Source: Phycisphaeraceae bacterium
GTDB taxonomy: Bacteria > Planctomycetota > Phycisphaerae > Phycisphaerales > UBA1924
DNA length: 64,000 nt
Direction: 5' to 3'
NCBI GenBank assembly: GCA_019636675.1
Contig: JAHBXC010000002.1
Coordinates: 124,001 to 188,000, forward strand
How positions within the stretch are numbered: the first letter of the stretch is position 1; every line of letters starts with the position of its first letter. Shown piece by piece: positions 3 through 15,273 of the stretch. The notes beneath the pieces are model-generated. The model saw only the letters and a program-made list of their open reading frames with translations, was not told the DNA's origin and searched no databases. Made by a program: the position numbers and the translations under genes.

Positions 3-4989
<4,987 letters not shown>

Positions 4990-4993
<4 letters not shown>

Positions 4994-7116
4994 GCCGCGC
5001 CTCGCCCGAGCACGCGATGCGAGAGACGCTCGCGCCACTCTGCGCGTTGCTGGGCGTGCGCGACCGGTACACCGACGGGCTCGGGCAGCGCCGGCGCGCG
5101 CCGCTTGACTCGACGCTCGCGACGGTGCGCGCGATGGGCGTGGAAGCTGTGACCGTCGAGGGGCTGTCGCGCGCGACGCGCGCGCTGGCGGTGGAGCGAC
5201 TTGACCGGACTCTCGAGCCCGTGACGCTGGCGTGGGGCGGGAAACTCTCGGGCATCGCGGTTCGCCTGCCTCGCGGCGAGCGCGCCCGCGACGCGCACTG
5301 CGAGCTGGCGCTCGAGGACGGTGGCGTCGTGTCGTGGAAGGCGGCGCTGCGAGAGCGTGCCCCGTCGCGCGCCGAGCGGCAGGCCGTCGACGCCGGGGCG
5401 CGGATCCCGGTGCGGCTCTTCATCTGCCCTGGCCCGAAGGGCGCGGCCCCGATGGGGGTGCACACGCTGCGGATGCGCGTGGGCGCGATGCGGGCCGAGT
5501 CGCGCGTGATCGCGGCGCCTCGCAGGGCGTTCGGCGCGGAGCGCCCGTGGGACGCGTGGGGCGTGTTCCTGCCTCTGTACGCGCTGACGAGCGAGCGCAG
5601 CCCCGACATCGCGGACCTGACTGACCTGCGCGCGCTGCGAGACTGGGCGTCGTCGCTTGGGTCGTCGTTCGTGGGCACGCTGCCCCTGTTCGCGTCGTAT
5701 CTGGACGAGCCGTTCGACCCGAGCCCGTACGCGCCGGTCTCGCGCGCGTTCTGGAACGAGCTGTACCTCGACACGGGCGGTTCGCGCGGGTCGGGCCCGC
5801 CCGACACCGGATCGCTCGTGGAGTACCGCGGCGTATACGCGAGGAAGCGCGCGGAGATCGACGCGATCGCGGCGCGCGAGATGGATCGCGCCAGCGCCGG
5901 ATCGGGCGCGCTCTGGCAGCGTATCGAAGAGGACCGTCTGCTCGACCAGTACGCGTGTTTCCGTGCGCTCGTCGAGCGTCGGCGCGCCGGGTGGCGTTCG
6001 TGGCCCGACGCGTCCGACCGGGCCGTGCTGGACCAGGTCTCGCCGAGCGACCCGTCGTATCTTTCGCACGCGTACGCGCAGCTCGCGATGCGCGACCAGA
6101 TGGGCGCGTTGACCGGCGGGGAGGATCGCGGCGGGCTGTACCTGGACCTGCCTCTGGGCGTGCACTCGGACGGGTTCGACGCGTGGCGTTTCCGCGGGCA
6201 GCTGCTCGAGGGGCTGAGCGTCGGCGCGCCGCCCGACCCGCTGTTCACGGCAGGGCAGTCGTGGGGCTTTGCGCCGGCGTGCCCTCGCGTGGGGCGCGAG
6301 CGTTGCTACCCGATCCTGCGCGAGTCGCTCGAGACGCTGATGCGTGTGTCGTGCGGCGTGCGGATCGACCATGTGATGGGGTTGCACCGGCTTTTCGTGG
6401 TGCCGGCGGGATTCGGCGCGAAGGAGGGGCTGTACATCCAGCAGTCGCTGGACGAGCAGCTCGCGCTGGTGTGCCTGCTGTCGCACCGCGAGCGGTGCCG
6501 CGTCGTGGGCGAGAACCTCGGCGCTGTCCCGCCGGTGGTGACGCGCACGATGCGCACGCGCGGCGTGCTGGGGATGCATGTCGCGCAGTTCGCTGTGCGT
6601 GCAGACGCTCGTCGCGCGATGGACCCGGCGCCGGCCGGGACGCTGGCGAGTCTGAACACGCACGATGTGCCGCCCTTCGCGGCGTGGTGGCGCGGGGCCG
6701 ACATCGATATCTGGCGTTCGCTCGGGCTGATGGACGAGGCGCAGTGCGCCGCGGAGCGAGCCGGTCGTGTGAAGACGACGCGGGCGCTCTCGTCGTGGCT
6801 GGCCAGGCGAGCGGGGGGCTCCGGAGCGGTGGAGGGCGAGCTTCCGGCGATGCGCGCCGTGACGCGAGCGCTGGCGGGCGGCGACGCGGACGCGCTGCTG
6901 GTGACGCTGGAGGACCTGTGGGGGGAGACTCGGCCCCAGAACGTGCCGGGGACATCGTTCGAGCTGCCCAACTGGAGGCGGCGCGCGTCGCTGACGCTCG
7001 AGGGGATGATGGCGGATTCACGCGTCGCAGAAACGCTGCGCGAGGTTCACGACATCAGGGTTTCGCGGCGCAACAATACGAAGCGCACATCGCGCAGGAG
7101 GATCGCCCATGGCTGA
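4990..7116 (+). CDS. malQ: 4-alpha-glucanotransferase (amylomaltase, GH77)
   Basis: This enzyme disproportionates maltodextrins by moving glucan segments between chains, recycling the short glucans made around glycogen turnover. About 708 residues, close to the E. coli MalQ length. The three GH77 carboxylates are visible: D460 in [11 protein letters not shown]508 in VVGENLG and D559 in [12 protein letters not shown]. The N-terminal 60 residues resemble the MalQ-specific helical extension. I chose GTG at 4990 because it overlaps the previous stop (GTGA), as with glgE/treS; ATG at 5017 is the alternative. It is the third gene of the glucan cluster and overlaps glgB by 8 bases. The call rests on the GH77 motifs and length. 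Confidence 0.92.
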
Positions 7117-9106
7117 CCAGAAGCGAGCCGTCGCGCCGCGAGCGCCGAAGACCGTCGACGCGGATCGCGCCGTTGCCGCCGCGAACGCGGCGTTCAGTGT
7201 GCCCCCCGGGGCCGGGCCGAGCCGGGACGACCTGTGGCTGTTCAACGAGGGGAGCAATCTCGAGTTGCACGGATGCCTGGGGGCGCACCCGGTGACTCTG
7301 GACGGCGAGCGCGGCGTCGCGTTCGGGGTGTGGGCGCCGAACGCGGAGCGTGTGGCGGTCATCGGGGACTTCAACGGCTGGACGCGCCCCGGCGTGCCGC
7401 TGCGATCGCTTGGCGAGAGCGGCGTGTGGTGGGGCTTTGTTCCGGGGCTCGAGAAGGGCGCTGTGTACAAGTATCTCGTGCGTTCGCGCCACAACGGCTA
7501 TGAATCAGAGCGTTCCGATCCGATGGGGTTGCTTCACGAGATCCCGCCCAAGACGGCGAGCGTGGTGTGGGATCTTGAGTACGACTGGGGCGATGATTCG
7601 TGGATGCGCGAGCGTGCGGGCAGGCACGCGCTGCGCGAACCGATGTCGATCTACGAGTGTCATCTGGGTTCGTGGATGCGCGTGCCGGAGGAGGGGAACC
7701 GGTCGCTGACCTACCGCGAGCTGGCGCCGCGACTGGCGGATCACCTCGAGAAGCTGGGCTTCACGCACGTGGAGTTTCTTCCGGTGATGGAGCACCCGTT
7801 CGGCGGGTCGTGGGGGTATCAGGCGACGGGGTTCTTCGCGCCGACGAGCCGGTTCGGCACGCCGCAGGACTTCATGTTCCTGGTCGACACGCTGCACCAG
7901 AGAGGGATCGGGGTGATCCTGGACTGGTCGCCCTCGCACTTCCCCAGCGACGGGCACGGGCTGGCGTATTTCGACGGGACGCACCTGTACGAGCACGCGG
8001 AGGAGAGCCAGCGGATCCATCCGGACTGGAAGAGTTACATCTTCAATCTCGGGCGCAACGAGGTGAAGTCGTTCCTTCTCAGCAGCGCGATGCTGTGGCT
8101 GAAGAAGTACCACATCGACGGGCTGCGCGTGGACGCGGTGGCGTCGATGCTGTATCTGGACTACTCGCGCAAGCACGGGGAGTGGGTCCCCAACGAGCAC
8201 GGCGGTCGGGAGAACCTCGATTCGATCCGCTTCCTGCGCACGCTGAACGAGGCGGTGTACCGCGAGGTCCCCGGCGCGCAGACGATCGCGGAGGAATCGA
8301 CGGCGTGGCCCATGGTGAGCCGCCCGACGAGCAGCGGGGGGCTCGGCTTCGGGTTCAAGTGGGACATGGGGTGGATGCACGACACGCTGGTGTACATGTC
8401 GCGCGACCCGATCCACCGGCGTCACCACCACAACGAGATCACCTTCCGGATGATCTACGCGTTCAACGAGAACTTCGTGATGCCTCTCTCGCACGACGAG
8501 GTGGTGCACGGCAAGGGTTCGCTGCTGCGCAAGATGCCGGGCGACGACTGGCAGAAATTCGCGAATCTGCGCCTGCTGTACGCGTACATGTTCGCGCAGC
8601 CCGGGAAGAAGCTGCTCTTCCAGGGGGCCGAGGTGGCGCAGTGGGACGAGTGGAACCACGAGTCGAGCGTGGACTGGCACCTGCTGCAGTTCCCGCTGCA
8701 CAGGGGGGTGCGCGACCTGTTGTCGCGACTGAACGAGGTCTACCGGAGCGAGCCGGCGCTGCACGCGCGCGACTGCGACCCTTCCGGGTACGAGTGGATC
8801 GACGGGGGCGACGCCGCGAACAGCGTCCTGTCGTTCCTTCGTCGCAGCGGCGACCCGAAGGACGACGTGGTGGTGGTGTGCAACTTCACGCCGATCCCGC
8901 GCGAGAGTTATCGTGTCGGCGTGCCAACTGCCGGGTTCTGGCGCGAGATCGTCAACAGCGACGCGAAGGAGTACGCCGGCGCCGGGTGGGGGAGCATGGG
9001 CGGCGCGGCGAGCTCGCCGACCCCGTGGCACGGGCGTCCCCATTCGGTCAGTCTGACGCTGCCCCCGCTGGGCGTGGTGTTCCTCAAGCGGGAGGGGAAC
9101 GGCTGA
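7109..9106 (+). CDS. glgB: 1,4-alpha-glucan branching enzyme
   Basis: GlgB introduces alpha-1,6 branches into linear glucan. The protein has 665 residues: an N-terminal CBM48-type sandwich domain (around 65-160, with GVWAPNAERVAVIGDFNGW), then a GH13_9 barrel. LRVDAVASMLYLDY holds the nucleophile D342, IAEESTAWP the acid/base Glu (the pair at 395-396), and MPLSHDEVVHGKGSLL the third catalytic Asp. It lacks the extra N-terminal domain found in some longer GlgBs. A strong AGGAGG at 7096-7101 lies 7 bases before the ATG and settles the start, even though the gene overlaps malQ by 8 bases. With glgE it completes the machinery for building a branched glucan from maltose-1-phosphate. Confidence 0.96.
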   Translation: MADQKRAVAPRAPKTVDADRAVAAANAAFSVPPGAGPSRDDLWLFNEGSNLELHGCLGAHPVTLDGERGVAFGVWAPNAERVAVIGDFNGWTRPGVPLRSLGESGVWWGFVPGLEKGAVYKYLVRSRHNGYESERSDPMGLLHEIPPKTASVVWDLEYDWGDDSWMRERAGRHALREPMSIYECHLGSWMRVPEEGNRSLTYRELAPRLADHLEKLGFTHVEFLPVMEHPFGGSWGYQATGFFAPTSRFGTPQDFMFLVDTLHQRGIGVILDWSPSHFPSDGHGLAYFDGTHLYEHAEESQRIHPDWKSYIFNLGRNEVKSFLLSSAMLWLKKYHIDGLRVDAVASMLYLDYSRKHGEWVPNEHGGRENLDSIRFLRTLNEAVYREVPGAQTIAEESTAWPMVSRPTSSGGLGFGFKWDMGWMHDTLVYMSRDPIHRRHHHNEITFRMIYAFNENFVMPLSHDEVVHGKGSLLRKMPGDDWQKFANLRLLYAYMFAQPGKKLLFQGAEVAQWDEWNHESSVDWHLLQFPLHRGVRDLLSRLNEVYRSEPALHARDCDPSGYEWIDGGDAANSVLSFLRRSGDPKDDVVVVCNFTPIPRESYRVGVPTAGFWREIVNSDAKEYAGAGWGSMGGAASSPTPWHGRPHSVSLTLPPLGVVFLKREGNG

Positions 9107-9217
9107 TCGCGCCCCGGTTTGCTGGGCGCGCGCCCGTCGCGGGCCGATGAGGTATCTTCCCGCACGCCCGAGCGTCCGCCCGACCCGCACCTTTCCCGTC
9201 GCGCCCCGGTCATCCAT

Positions 9218-11635
9218 ATGGATCGATTCGTCTGCATCCACGGCCACTTCTACCAGCCCCCGAGGGAGAACCCGTGGCTGGAGGAGGTCGAGCTCCAGGA
9301 CAGCGCGTACCCCTACCACGACTGGAACGAACGCATCACGGCGGAGTGCTACGCGCCGAACGCGGCGTCGCGTCTGCTCGACGACGAGGGGCTGATCCGC
9401 GAGATCGTCAGCAACTACGAGAAGACGAGCTTCAACTTCGGGCCGACGCTGCTGTCGTGGATGGAGCGCCACGCGCCGGCGACGCTCGCGGCGATCGTCG
9501 AGGCGGACAAGAGGAGCCAGAAGCGGTTCTCCGGGCACGGCAGCGCGATCGCGCAGACCTACAACCACATCATCGCGCCGCTGGCGAACTCGCGCGACAA
9601 GCGGACGCAGGTGCTGTGGGGCGTCGCGGACTTCGTGAAGCGGTTCGGGCGTCGCCCGGAGGGGATGTGGCTGGCGGAGACGGCGGTGGACGTCGAGACG
9701 CTGGATTTCATGGCGGAGCAGGGGATCGCGTTCACGGTGCTGGCGCCGCAGCAGGCGGCGCGCGTGCGAGCCGTTGGTGAGAACCTGTGGCACGACGTGA
9801 GCGGCGGGCGGATCGACCCGACGCGTCCGTACCTGCAGCGTCTGCCCTCGGGGCGGAGCATCGCGCTGTTCTTCTACGACGGGCCGGTGTCGCGGGCCGT
9901 GGCGTTCGAGGGCATCCTGAAGCAGGGCGAGCGGTTCGCCGAGCGCCTGATGAGCGGGTTCAACGACTCTCGCCCTTGGGCGCAGCTGATGCACATCGCC
10001 GCCGACGGCGAGACCTACGGGCATCACCACAAGCACGGCGAGATGGCGCTGTCGTACGCGCTGGAGTACATCGAGCGCACCGGGTCCGCGAGACTGACGA
10101 ACTACGCGGAGTATCTCGAGCGCTTCCCCCCCGAGATGGAGGTGGAGGTCTTCGAGAACACGGCCTGGAGCTGCGCGCACGGCGTGGAGCGCTGGCGGAG
10201 CGACTGCGGCTGCACGACGGGGGGGCTGCCCGGGTGGAACCAGAAGTGGCGCGCGCCCCTGCGCCAGGCGCTCGACTGGCTGCGAGACCGCCTCGGCGAG
10301 GTCTTCGAGCGCGAGAGCGGCGGGCTGCTGCGCGACTGCTGGGCGGCGCGCGACGCCTACATCGCGGTGGTGCTCGATCGCAACGAGGCGACCATCGGCG
10401 CGTTCCTCACCGAGCACGGGGTGGGTGATGTCGTCGGCGACCGGCGGATCAAGGCGCTCAAGCTGCTCGAGATGGCGCGCCAGTCGATGCTGATGTTCAC
10501 GAGCTGCGGCTGGTTCTTCGACGACCTGTCGCGGATCGAGACCACGCAGGTGATGCGCTACGCCTGTCGCGCGATGCAGCTCGCCAGCGATGTCGGGGGG
10601 AAGGACTTCGAGCCCGAGTTCCTGGACCGCGTGTCGGCGGCCGTGAGCAATGTCCCCGAGAACGGCGACGGGCGCGAGGTGTACGACCGGTTCGTGCGCC
10701 CGGCGAAGATCGATCTGCACACGGTGGGGGCGCACTTCGCGATGAGCTCGCTCTTCGAGGAGTACGCGCAGCGGGACAGTCTTTACTGCTATTCGGTGGA
10801 GGTGGAAGACTACCAGGGGTTCGTCGCCGGGCGGTCGAAGCTCGCGGTCGGGCGTGTCCGGATCGCGTCGACGATCGTCGAGGAGAGCGAGATCATCTCG
10901 TTCGGCGTGCTGCACCTGGGCGATCAGAACCTCACGGCGTCGGTGCGGCGCTACCAGGGCGAGGTCGCGTACAAGGAGATGCTGCACGACCTGTCCGGCG
11001 CGTTCTCGCGGGCGGACTTCGCGGACACGATCCGCTCGCTCGACAAGCATTTCCAGGAAGAGCGATGCTCGGTGAAGCTGCTCTTCCAGGACGAGCAGCG
11101 CCGGATCCTCGACGAGATCCTCGACGCGACGCTGTCGCAGGTGGAGGCGTCGTACCGGAGGATGTTCGACGACCACGCGCCGCTCATGCGGTTCCTGCTC
11201 GACTCAGGCGTGCCGATGCCCCGCGCGCTGCGTCTGGCGGCGGAGTTCGTCGTCAACATCGAACTGCGCCGGCTTCTCGAGATCGACGAGCTGGACGAGC
11301 CGTCGCTGGACCGGATGATCGGCGCGGCTCGGGACTACGCGCTCGAGCTGGACAAGCCGGCGCTGAGTTTCGCGAGCCAGCGCGCCATCGAGCGGCGCGC
11401 GTTCGCGTTCCTGGATAAGCCCGACAACTTCTCGCTGCTGCGAGACTGTGACCGCATACTCGCGGTCGCGGAGCGGATGCCCTTCGACGCGAGTCTGTGG
11501 ACGACGCAGAACGTGTTCTACACGCTGCTGCGGACCCATTACCCGCAGCAGCAGGCGAGGGGAGACGAGGCGTCGCAGAAGTGGACGCACAAGTTCCGCG
11601 AGATGTGCACGCGCCTGCGCATCAGGGTGGGCTGA
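9218..11635 (+). CDS. GH57-fold glycoside hydrolase with DUF3536 region
   Basis: About 805 residues. The N-terminal 350 look like a GH57 domain: HGHFYQPP at 8-15 is the family's first conserved block, E154 in WLAETAVD is a candidate nucleophile and D263 in AADGETYGHHH a candidate acid/base. The rest matches what I know as DUF3536, an uncharacterised helical region attached to such domains. GH57 enzymes act on alpha-glucans (amylase, 4-alpha-glucanotransferase or branching activity), and the position between glgB and treY fits, but the exact reaction is unknown. ATG at 9218 (IHMDRFVCIHGH) is preferred over an in-frame upstream start at 9119 because the conserved sequence begins there. It lies 111 bases after glgB, so it may have its own start site. 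Confidence 0.82.
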   Translation: MDRFVCIHGHFYQPPRENPWLEEVELQDSAYPYHDWNERITAECYAPNAASRLLDDEGLIREIVSNYEKTSFNFGPTLLSWMERHAPATLAAIVEADKRSQKRFSGHGSAIAQTYNHIIAPLANSRDKRTQVLWGVADFVKRFGRRPEGMWLAETAVDVETLDFMAEQGIAFTVLAPQQAARVRAVGENLWHDVSGGRIDPTRPYLQRLPSGRSIALFFYDGPVSRAVAFEGILKQGERFAERLMSGFNDSRPWAQLMHIAADGETYGHHHKHGEMALSYALEYIERTGSARLTNYAEYLERFPPEMEVEVFENTAWSCAHGVERWRSDCGCTTGGLPGWNQKWRAPLRQALDWLRDRLGEVFERESGGLLRDCWAARDAYIAVVLDRNEATIGAFLTEHGVGDVVGDRRIKALKLLEMARQSMLMFTSCGWFFDDLSRIETTQVMRYACRAMQLASDVGGKDFEPEFLDRVSAAVSNVPENGDGREVYDRFVRPAKIDLHTVGAHFAMSSLFEEYAQRDSLYCYSVEVEDYQGFVAGRSKLAVGRVRIASTIVEESEIISFGVLHLGDQNLTASVRRYQGEVAYKEMLHDLSGAFSRADFADTIRSLDKHFQEERCSVKLLFQDEQRRILDEILDATLSQVEASYRRMFDDHAPLMRFLLDSGVPMPRALRLAAEFVVNIELRRLLEIDELDEPSLDRMIGAARDYALELDKPALSFASQRAIERRAFAFLDKPDNFSLLRDCDRILAVAERMPFDASLWTTQNVFYTLLRTHYPQQQARGDEASQKWTHKFREMCTRLRIRVG

Positions 11636-11639
11636 CGGG

Positions 11640-14204
11640 ATGGGCTCGACCGATCCGATCGCGTTCTACCGGCTTCAGCTGACGCCCGACTTCGGCTTTG
11701 AGCACGCCGCGCGCACGCTGGATCTGATCGCCGGGCTGGGGTGTTCGCACGCGTACCTTTCACCGATCTTCGAGGCGGTCCCGGGCAGCCGGCACGGGTA
11801 CGACGTGACGGACCCGACGCGCGTGCGCTCCGAGTTCGGTGGGCGCGAGGGGTTCGAGCGTTTCGTGCGCGCCTGCCGCGAGCGCGGGCTCGGGGTGCTG
11901 ATCGACATCGTGCCGAACCACATGGCCAGCAGCGAGCACGGCCCGCAGTGGCGCGACGTTCTCGCGCGGGGCGAGTCCTCGCGGTTCGCGAAGTGGTTCG
12001 ACCTGCGCTGGCGACCGTTCGGGGCGGCGGGTCATCGGCGTCTTCTGCTCCCGATCCTCGGCGCGCCGCTCCGACGCGCCGTGGAGGAGGGCCAGGTGCG
12101 CGTGGTTCGAGACGGGGCGTCGGTCGCGATCGAGGCGCACGGCAGGCGCCTGCCGCTGCGCGACGACCCGGCGCACGCGTCCGACGAGCTCGACGAGCTG
12201 CTCGAGTCCCAGCACTACGCGCTGGTGCACTGGGAACTGGCGCGCGAGCTGGTGGCGTACCGGCGGTACTTCGACATCGGCGATCTGGTCGCGCTGCGCA
12301 TGGACGACGAGGAAGTCTTCCGCGAGACGCACGCGCTGGTGGGCGATCTGGCGTCGGAGGGCCTGATCGACGGCGTGCGCGTCGACCACATCGACGGGCT
12401 GGCGGACCCGGCGGAGTACACGCGCCGCCTTCGGGGGCTGCTGAGAGACGCCTATTCGCGCGGCTCGCGCGAGGGCGCGGCGTTGATCTATGTCGAGAAA
12501 ACGCTCGGCGAGGGCGAGCGTCTGCCGCGCGACTGGCCCGTGGACGGGACGACCGGCTACGACCTGCTCTCGTCGCTGACCGGCGTGCTGGCGGACCCGG
12601 GCGGGCTCGCGACCATCGGGAGCTGGTACGCGCGCGCGACGGGCTCGACCCCCGACCTCGAGAACGCCGCACTCGCGAAGAAGCTCGAGGTGAGCGAGCG
12701 GCTGTTCCGCGGCGAGACCGATGAGCTGGTGGACGCGGCGGTCGTGCTGGCGTGGGCGTCGCCCTCGACGCGCGACATCCGGCCCAGCGACGTGCGCCGG
12801 GCGGTGATCGCGTCCGCGGCGCGCTGCCCCGTGGTGAGGACCTATCTGACGCCCGATCACGCGAGCGACGACGATGTCCGCGCGGCGCACGCCGCCTGCG
12901 ACGCGGCGGCGCAGATCCTGGGCGACTCCGACGCGCTGCGCGCGTTGGAGTTCGTGCGCGACGCGCTGGTCGGGCCGTCCCGCCCGGGCGACGACGCGGG
13001 GCGCGAGCGTCTGCGCTGGGCGTTCGTGACGATGTGGCAGCGGATGACGGTGCCCCTGGCGGCGAAGGGGTTCGAGGACGCGACGCTCTACAACGACGCG
13101 AGGTGCCTGGCGCTCAACGAGATCGGCGTGGAGGCGCGCGCGTGGGAGGGCGGCTGCACGGTGGGGGACTTCCACGACGCCAACGGGCGGCGCGTCGGCG
13201 ATCACCCGCTGGCGATGACCACGACCTCGACGCACGACACGAAGCGGAGCGAGGATGTGCGGGCGCGTCTGTTCGCGCTGACGACGCTCGGCGCGGAATG
13301 GGTTGCGCTCGCCGATGAATGGGCCGAGGCGAACGCGTCGCTGAAGGATCGCGTCGGGGGCGTTCCGGCGCCCGACGCGATTGACGAGTTGTTCACCTAC
13401 CAGACGCTGCTGGGGGCGTGGCCGCTGCACGGGGATGAGTTGCCCGAGTTCGTCCAGCGCGTGCGTCGGTACGTGGTGAAGGCGGCGCGGGAGTCGGGTC
13501 GTCACAGCAACTGGATCACGCCGAACGGCGAGTATGAGGCGGCGTGGGAGCGATTCGTGGAGCGTGTGTGCGCGCCGGGGGCGGCGAGGGAGTTCAGGGA
13601 CGGCTTCCACGCGCTGCGCGAGCGGGTCGCGCTGCGCGGGATGGAGAACTCGCTGACGCAGTGCGTGCTCAAGGCGTTCGCCCCGGGCGCGCCGGACATC
13701 TATTGGGGGAACGACCGCTGGGACTTCAGTCTGGTCGACCCGGACAACCGGCGGCCCGTCGACTTCGGCGCCGCCGGCCAGTCGCTCGCGACGGTCGGCG
13801 GCGCGAGCGTCGAGACGGCGCGCGAACTGCTGTCGTCGTGGCTCGACGGGCGCGTGAAGCAGTTCGTCGTGCGCGAGGCGCTGCGTGCGCGCCGGGCTTC
13901 GCCCGGGCTGTTCACGAGGGGCGGCGTCGTGGCGCTGTCGCGCCAGGGCGATCCGTTCGTGGCGTTCGAGCGCCGCCTTGGCGAGCGATGCGCCGTGGTC
14001 GTCGCGTCGCGCGGGTGGGGCCCGGCGTGCCCGATGGTCGGGGCGGCGTGGGGCGACGCGTCGGTCGAGATCGAGGGCGGGAACGGCGGCGCGTGGCGCG
14101 AGGTGTTCACCGGGCGTGAGCGGGCGCTCGGGGGGCGCGCGGCGCTGCGCGACCTGCTCGATGTGTTCCCGGTCGCGGCGTTTGTCAGAGGACCGGGGCG
14201 CTGA
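11640..14204 (+). CDS. treY: Malto-oligosyltrehalose synthase
   Basis: TreY (GH13_26) isomerises the reducing-end maltose of a maltodextrin into a trehalosyl unit, which TreZ normally releases as trehalose. The protein has 854 residues. It opens with FYRLQLTPDFGFEHAARTLD, the classic TreY N-terminus. Catalytic residues are D249 in GVRVDHIDGLADP, E286 in IYVEKTLGEGE and D533 in STHDTKRSEDVRARL. The ATG lies 4 bases after the GH57 gene stop, so it is part of the same transcript. No treZ lies in the window; it may be upstream, elsewhere, or replaced by the GH57 enzyme. The last 20 bases overlap the 3' end of the convergent B12-binding gene. Confidence 0.95.
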   Translation: MGSTDPIAFYRLQLTPDFGFEHAARTLDLIAGLGCSHAYLSPIFEAVPGSRHGYDVTDPTRVRSEFGGREGFERFVRACRERGLGVLIDIVPNHMASSEHGPQWRDVLARGESSRFAKWFDLRWRPFGAAGHRRLLLPILGAPLRRAVEEGQVRVVRDGASVAIEAHGRRLPLRDDPAHASDELDELLESQHYALVHWELARELVAYRRYFDIGDLVALRMDDEEVFRETHALVGDLASEGLIDGVRVDHIDGLADPAEYTRRLRGLLRDAYSRGSREGAALIYVEKTLGEGERLPRDWPVDGTTGYDLLSSLTGVLADPGGLATIGSWYARATGSTPDLENAALAKKLEVSERLFRGETDELVDAAVVLAWASPSTRDIRPSDVRRAVIASAARCPVVRTYLTPDHASDDDVRAAHAACDAAAQILGDSDALRALEFVRDALVGPSRPGDDAGRERLRWAFVTMWQRMTVPLAAKGFEDATLYNDARCLALNEIGVEARAWEGGCTVGDFHDANGRRVGDHPLAMTTTSTHDTKRSEDVRARLFALTTLGAEWVALADEWAEANASLKDRVGGVPAPDAIDELFTYQTLLGAWPLHGDELPEFVQRVRRYVVKAARESGRHSNWITPNGEYEAAWERFVERVCAPGAAREFRDGFHALRERVALRGMENSLTQCVLKAFAPGAPDIYWGNDRWDFSLVDPDNRRPVDFGAAGQSLATVGGASVETARELLSSWLDGRVKQFVVREALRARRASPGLFTRGGVVALSRQGDPFVAFERRLGERCAVVVASRGWGPACPMVGAAWGDASVEIEGGNGGAWREVFTGRERALGGRAALRDLLDVFPVAAFVRGPGR

Positions 14205-15273
14205 GCCCGACGAGCGAGCGCGCGACGCGGACCGCGTCGTGGGCGTCGCAGGCGATGGCGTCGGCGCCGGCGTCCTTCCACGCGGTCTCGTCGTTGCAGA
14301 ACGCGCGCCCGCCCACCAGCACGGGCACGCGAGCGATCTCGGGGCGTTCGCGCAGCATGCGGATCGCCTTGGCGACGTTGCGGCGCTGCGAGGGAAGCGT
14401 GGCGGAGAGCGCGAGCAGGTCTGCGCGGAAGTCGGAAACCGCCTGGACGAGGTCGGTCGCGGGCATGTTGTTGCCGAGGTAGATCACGCGCCACCCGTCG
14501 ATGTCGAGGAAGTCCGACGCGACGCGCAGGCCGACGTCGTGCGTGTCGCCTTCGACGGCGGACGCGATGACCGTCCTGCCGTTGGCTGGCGACTTGGGCG
14601 CCCGGGCCAGGAGCTGCGACATGATCATCTTCGACGTCGCGGTGACGAAGTGCTCCTCGGCGACGGAGATCTCGTTCATGTGCCACATCCGCCCAAGCTC
14701 CTGCTGCGCAGGAACGAGCACGCTCAGGTAGGCGTCGTGCAGCGAGACCCGGTTGGCGTCCACGGCGTCGAGCACCATCGCGCTCGCGGCGCGGCGGTCG
14801 CCTTCGAGCAGCGCGAGCACGTACTTCGCGGCCAGGCGCCCGTGCGGCGTGTCGACCGACAGCGCCGAGGGCGCTTCGTCGGGCGCCGCCTCGAGCGCGT
14901 CGAGCGACATCTGGATGATCTGCAGCGGCTTGGCGCGCTCCGCTTCGGGGAGCTCGTCGGTGAGCACCTCACGCAGCGCGACGAGACTCTCACGCAGGTC
15001 GCCCAGGGGCACGCCGCGCGCCGCGAAGGCGATCTTGCCCCACAGCACCTGATCGATGAAGAGACTCGGGCGACCCTGCTGGATCGCGTCCGACAGGTCG
15101 TACAGCCGGCCAGTCAGATTCTCTTTCCACGCCAGGCGCGGGTGCGGCGCGAAGCGGTGCGCGACCTCGGGCCGGCGCAGCATCAGGCGTTCCGTCGCCA
15201 GGACGGCGTAGCCGGACGCCGAGGCGTCGAGGATCTGCGCAAGGAACGGACTGGGGGGCATTCTAACGGACAT
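14185..15273 (-). CDS. Cobalamin-binding protein with CarH-like helical and Rossmann B12 domains
   Basis: About 362 residues from the ATG at 15271-15273; a GTG at 15292-15294 and an ATG 12 bases downstream are alternatives. Residues 145-230 look like the four-helix cap of adenosylcobalamin sensors, with the exact spacing W197-x9-E207-H208 (Wx9EH) of CarH/LitR photoreceptors. Residues 233-362 form the B12-binding Rossmann fold: D243-T-H245-x-x-G, then SATL and VLVGG, where H245 would be the lower axial ligand. The first 140 residues match nothing I recognise and contain no obvious MerR helix-turn-helix or kinase. It may be a B12-based light or cofactor sensor that acts through a partner; a corrinoid carrier role is possible but less likely. 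Confidence 0.8.
   Translation of the reverse strand: MSVRMPPSPFLAQILDASASGYAVLATERLMLRRPEVAHRFAPHPRLAWKENLTGRLYDLSDAIQQGRPSLFIDQVLWGKIAFAARGVPLGDLRESLVALREVLTDELPEAERAKPLQIIQMSLDALEAAPDEAPSALSVDTPHGRLAAKYVLALLEGDRRAASAMVLDAVDANRVSLHDAYLSVLVPAQQELGRMWHMNEISVAEEHFVTATSKMIMSQLLARAPKSPANGRTVIASAVEGDTHDVGLRVASDFLDIDGWRVIYLGNNMPATDLVQAVSDFRADLLALSATLPSQRRNVAKAIRMLRERPEIARVPVLVGGRAFCNDETAWKDAGADAIACDAHDAVRVARSLVGLSAPVL

Follow-up and report, generated by a model that had tools for sequence, protein, structure and literature searches.

What does a protein sense that carries the cobalamin-binding motif of the light sensors CarH and LitR but not their MerR domain, and through what does it act? This question is raised by a gene in the 64,000-nucleotide stretch of a Phycisphaeraceae genome analysed here (the window). 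A sequence-only reading of the locus recognized W197-x9-E207-H208 and DTHxxG, found nothing familiar in the first 140 residues, and proposed a light- or B12-responsive regulator with a new output. As judged from sequence comparison and structure prediction, the gene very probably encodes a stand-alone photoglobin-B12 (photocobilin-type) photoreceptor, in which the globin precedes the cobalamin-binding domain (CBD), and the protein is a probable green-light sensor using vitamin B12. Thus, a CarH-like adenosylcobalamin light sensor without MerR, as proposed, is supported by the sequence, but no new type of regulator is involved, since the architecture is that of the photoglobins/photocobilins, a kind described in 2022–2024; the usual bilin-binding residues are missing.

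The reading frame is counted from an ATG, and a GTG located 7 codons upstream is a possible alternative start (Table 1). Homologues are encoded in 43 of the 150 sampled genomes of the same taxonomic family (the window genome counted), and nearly all are full length, the exceptions being one CBD-only and one partial protein. Residue conservation is given below for an alignment of 27 homologues, all from the taxonomic family of the source genome, and for a wider-phylum sample of 26 homologues.

Table 1. Features of the photoreceptor gene, in window coordinates
Feature	Position	Strand	Basis
Globin-CBD gene, protein P0001	14185..15273	minus	ORF of 362 aa; Pfam and homologues
Phycobiliprotein-like globin (photoglobin / biliverdin-binding-domain homologue), residues 9-129	14887..15249	minus	Profile, Pfam, model, fold comparison
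Four-helix CBD cap (B12-binding_2), residues 143-224	14602..14847	minus	Pfam and predicted model
Rossmann B12-binding domain, residues 233-355	14209..14577	minus	Pfam, predicted model, fold comparison
W197-H198-x8-E207-H208, predicted adenosyl-binding motif	14650..14685	minus	Sequence and family alignment
G242-D-T-H245; H245, predicted lower-axial cobalt ligand (CarH H177)	14539..14550	minus	Sequence and family alignment
W49-K-E-N52, aligned with phycobiliprotein CxRD	15118..15129	minus	Profile, family and phylum alignments
W78 (SasPcob W296), invariant	15040..15042	minus	Profile and family alignment

In the C-terminal half, the Pfam families B12-binding_2 (PF02607) and B12-binding (PF02310) match residues 148-221 and 234-348, respectively (5e-13 and 4e-19). 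These matches cover the W-x9-EH motif, so that it sits in a true CBD rather than occurring by chance and, by sequence, belongs to a genuine CarH-type domain; this motif and DTHxxG (G242-D-T-H245-x-x-G) are present as first described and conserved in the family. All four elements of the signature by which light-responsive cobalamin domains are recognized, GxxW, EH, GxxH and GxxxP (PMC11796333), occur in the window protein, namely G194RMW197, E207H208, G242DTH245 and G267NNMP271, and none of the 27 family members deviates at G194, W197, E207, H208, H245, G267 or P271. H198, which corresponds to CarH H132, the bis-His ligand of the light state (PMC11796333), is retained in 23 of the 27. Identity with CarH itself was rejected: no MerR or helix-turn-helix family is found by Pfam, in agreement with the sequence-only reading, and the NCBIfam CarH model NF052513 scores 67.9 bits against a cut-off of 400, over the CBD part only.

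For the N-terminal half, the window protein alone gives only a hint, namely a faint allophycocyanin match (E 0.12) and one stretch that aligns with the C-terminal globin of the photocobilin SasPcob. The identity of this region is settled by the profile of the alignment of 27 homologues (A2): when compared with the PDB, it matches the SasPcob globin best (8j2x/8j2w, E 4e-8), followed by smURFP (5e-4), allophycocyanins and AbPcob, and no protein kinds beyond photocobilins, smURFP and allophycocyanins appear at E<0.01. The Pfam family Phycobilisome is matched individually by 8 of the 27 members (best 2e-4) but not by the window protein itself. The AlphaFold2 model, computed from two input sequences only, contains five long helices spanning residues 9 to 129. 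Fold comparison aligns model residues 5-129 with allophycocyanin (Z 16.3, rmsd 2.1, 125 residues) and the model with smURFP (Z 15.4); the globin modelled alone (pLDDT 66) retrieves allophycocyanins with Z up to 14.2 and the SasPcob globin with Z 12.7 over 121 residues. Residues ~9-129, in which nothing had been recognized and for which structure prediction with fold comparison had been suggested, are thus predicted to be a five-helix, allophycocyanin-like globin of the phycobiliprotein type. The combination of such a globin with a CarH-type CBD in one chain defines the photoglobin/photocobilin architecture, and the whole-family profile indeed finds photocobilins as the best PDB matches (8j2x/8j2w, E 2e-46), to which the two domains align in the opposite order.

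Photocobilins respond to green light by cleavage of the Co-C bond in adenosylcobalamin, and biliverdin bound to the globin makes them sensitive to red as well (PMC10979010). The site of D270, the key biliverdin contact of SasPcob (PMC10979010), is occupied by N52 in the window protein, which makes bilin binding in the SasPcob manner doubtful (SasPcob numbering was fixed by W61 and H108, whose numbers exceed the chain index of the alignments by 6). Among the 27 family members, this position is Asn in 9, His in 6, Gln and Ala in 3 each, Cys and Glu in 2 each, and Ser and Leu in 1 each, and it is never Asp (0/27); the adjacent position 51 carries an acidic residue in 23 of the 27, so that the bilin contact may be shifted by one residue. 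W49, a tryptophan throughout the family (27/27), occupies the site of the bilin-attaching cysteine, which in phycobiliproteins lies in CxRD (PMC10151467). W78 is likewise tryptophan in all 27 members and aligns with the SasPcob residue that makes contact with both the corrin and ring D of the bilin (PMC10979010), and R86, the equivalent of the AbPcob pocket residue R297, is conserved. In the wider-phylum sample, W49 is present in 14 of 26 homologues, none of which has D52 (0/14); among the 10 homologues that lack W49 and cover both positions, D52 is found in 8 and C49 in 3. Altogether, D52 occurs in 0 of 41 W49 types against 8 of 10 others (Fisher 7e-8, for sequences that are not independent). 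As far as the aligned sequences go, W49 and D52 are mutually exclusive across the phylum sample and mark two photoglobin types. The possibility that the W49 type is a single clade was rejected, as the tree requires two changes and its base is left unresolved.

With regard to cofactor supply, the genome encodes a cobalamin adenosyltransferase (PF01923, 5e-58) and a heme oxygenase; a search for the phytochrome PHY domain gave no match in it. Within the family, heme oxygenase, searched as PF01126, is present in 32 of the 43 genomes with the gene and in 77 of the 107 without it (Fisher p 0.84); given this lack of association, it was rejected as support for a bilin. Only 4 of the 25 gene-bearing genomes from other planctomycete families possess the enzyme, and the four gene-bearing genomes of genus g13 have no PF01126 match. 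PF01126 is likewise missing from the genomes that carry Asp-type relatives, so that heme oxygenase cannot separate the W49 type from the Asp type. The genomic evidence thus lends no support to an obligatory bilin, although, with this one heme oxygenase family searched, it still allows for one.

The absence of Asp from all 27 members, the invariant Trp at the attachment site and the untracked heme oxygenase together suggest that the sensor may be B12-only, its globin having lost the bilin. It appears possible, albeit somewhat short of probable, that this applies to a broad planctomycete W49-type photoglobin-B12 subfamily, in which Trp would fill the chromophore site, the pyrrole-binding Asp would be lost, and the globin would serve only to relay the signal or to dock a partner, in a light switch that depends on B12 alone and retains the bis-His mechanism of CarH. 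The opposite reading, a variant of the same photoreceptor explanation, is a full photocobilin that would bind biliverdin in another pose, with N52 or E51 in the place of D270, and pass red light to B12. The conservation of W78 and R86 and the occurrence of heme oxygenase in a genome without phytochrome are compatible with this reading, as is the case of AbDPcob, which has His at the D270 site yet retains partial biliverdin binding (~20%) and a red-light response (PMC10979010). Against these points stand the variability of the D270 site in the family and the distribution of heme oxygenase, including the four genus g13 carriers; we regard biliverdin binding as a realistic option, to be held tentatively.

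Two further explanations would remove light from the picture. That the protein serves a methyltransferase as corrinoid carrier or a mutase as subunit, and is no sensor at all, is suggested by weak matches of the Rossmann part, in profile and in fold, to MtbC, MtgC, MetH and glutamate mutase. However, all NCBIfam methyltransferase and mutase scores are far under their cut-offs (for the carrier models MtbC/MtaC/MtgC, 65 against 370, 59 against 350 and 36-40 against 420-450 bits), on which grounds this identity, named in the sequence-only reading as the alternative that a homology search could reveal, was rejected; besides, those families have neither the adenosyl-specific W-x9-EH cap nor the globin, and no methyltransferase is found among the genes flanking the photoreceptor gene in the window, all of which renders a carrier role highly improbable. 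A B12 or redox sensor of the same fold whose activity in the cell is independent of light would fit an immediate neighbourhood in which, as observed earlier for carotenoid genes, there are no light-related or carotenoid genes. This is unlikely, although less so than a carrier, given that all four light-signature elements are kept and that the proteins with this signature tested to date are photoactive (PMC11796333).

The mechanism that we infer for the photoreceptor from the computed homology, predicted fold and conserved residues involves B12 binding, a light response, a change of oligomeric state and a partner. In the dark, adenosylcobalamin would be in the base-off form, its cobalt ligated from below by H245 and its adenosyl group surrounded by W197, E207 and H208, and would hold an oligomer together. 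Green light would break the Co-C bond and the adenosyl group would depart, whereupon H198 may ligate the cobalt like CarH H132. The helical cap would then move, altering the oligomer or the globin/CBD interface, and the globin, packed on the corrin via W78, might relay or tune the change. Since no output domain is attached, signalling most likely proceeds in trans through a bound partner, for which a kinase, a cyclase or another signalling enzyme is plausible; a cyclase can be switched on in this way by published photocobilins of the stand-alone kind (PMC10979010).

The genomic context was examined for such a partner. In the window, the gene is flanked by a glycogen/alpha-glucan cluster and by a divergently oriented gene for an HI0933-like flavoprotein. 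The cluster (4936-14204) encodes a 4-alpha-glucanotransferase (GH77), a branching-enzyme-type alpha-amylase, a GH57-DUF3536 protein and an alpha-amylase-family protein that reads as maltooligosyl trehalose synthase; it is convergent with the photoreceptor gene, the 3' ends overlapping by 20 bases. No conserved neighbour was found in the 19 neighbourhoods compared, and no Pfam family occurs in more than 3 of the 72 neighbouring proteins; an adjacent output partner was rejected because the neighbours are not conserved among relatives. Elsewhere, two homologues from another class of the phylum (L083:1021-3417 and L091:1495-3906) are hybrid kinases with the order globin-CBD-HisKA-HATPase-receiver (Pfam on one). 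In another genome of the same taxonomic family (L051, G130:C4), three tandem paralogous genes of ~230-250 aa lie on the same strand upstream of a globin-CBD homologue, and the one that was scanned encodes a PAS-LuxR (GerE) regulator. The kinase fusions and the PAS-LuxR neighbour hint at two-component or LuxR-type regulation as the pathway that receives the signal. The genome of the window also encodes a second stand-alone protein with the B12-binding fold (P0002, 237 aa, C1:718487-719101), in which TDADEL replaces DxHxxG and the cobalt-ligating His is lost; judging from these substitutions, it is unlikely to bind B12 in the canonical manner.

With these observations, a large planctomycete family gains a probable B12-globin light sensor, in a phylum for which our literature search found no B12 photoreceptors described. 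They also provide a natural test of the role of the globin in photocobilins, with the globin kept, the known bilin contacts missing and the CarH light-state His kept in the CBD; set against SasPcob, such a protein would allow the roles of the globin that depend on a bilin to be told apart from those that do not.

Among the known systems, SasPcob from Saccharothrix syringae (8J2W/8J2X) is, like the window protein, a stand-alone combination of a CBD and a phycobiliprotein-like globin, with W-x9-EH, GxxH and the W78 equivalent W296 in common and about 30% identity between the CBDs. The two differ in that SasPcob has its globin at the C-terminus, D270 in the place of N52, and Gln in the place of the CarH-like H198. 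For photocobilins, structures have been solved and the photochemistry measured, and the light state of SasPcob is a monomer (PMC10979010); the groups described have the B12 domain at either end, the C-terminus included (PMC10979010), so that the globin-first order is not new. AbDPcob (8J2Y), a photocobilin-diguanylate cyclase, has the same two domains and has also lost the D270 site (to His), with reduced biliverdin occupancy, but differs in the fused GGDEF output, the domain order and Tyr in the place of H198. CarH and LitR have in common with the window protein a CBD with a complete adenosyl pocket (H132 or its equivalent included), and they have a MerR DNA-binding domain where the window protein has its globin. 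A further known group is that of the photoglobin-B12 proteins, in which, reportedly (Schneider et al., 2022), the globin is coupled to the B12 domain as a sensory hub, the same coupling as in the window protein. The motif reported for photoglobins is CxQD (PMC10151467), whereas the subfamily of the window protein has W-x-E/D-N/H.
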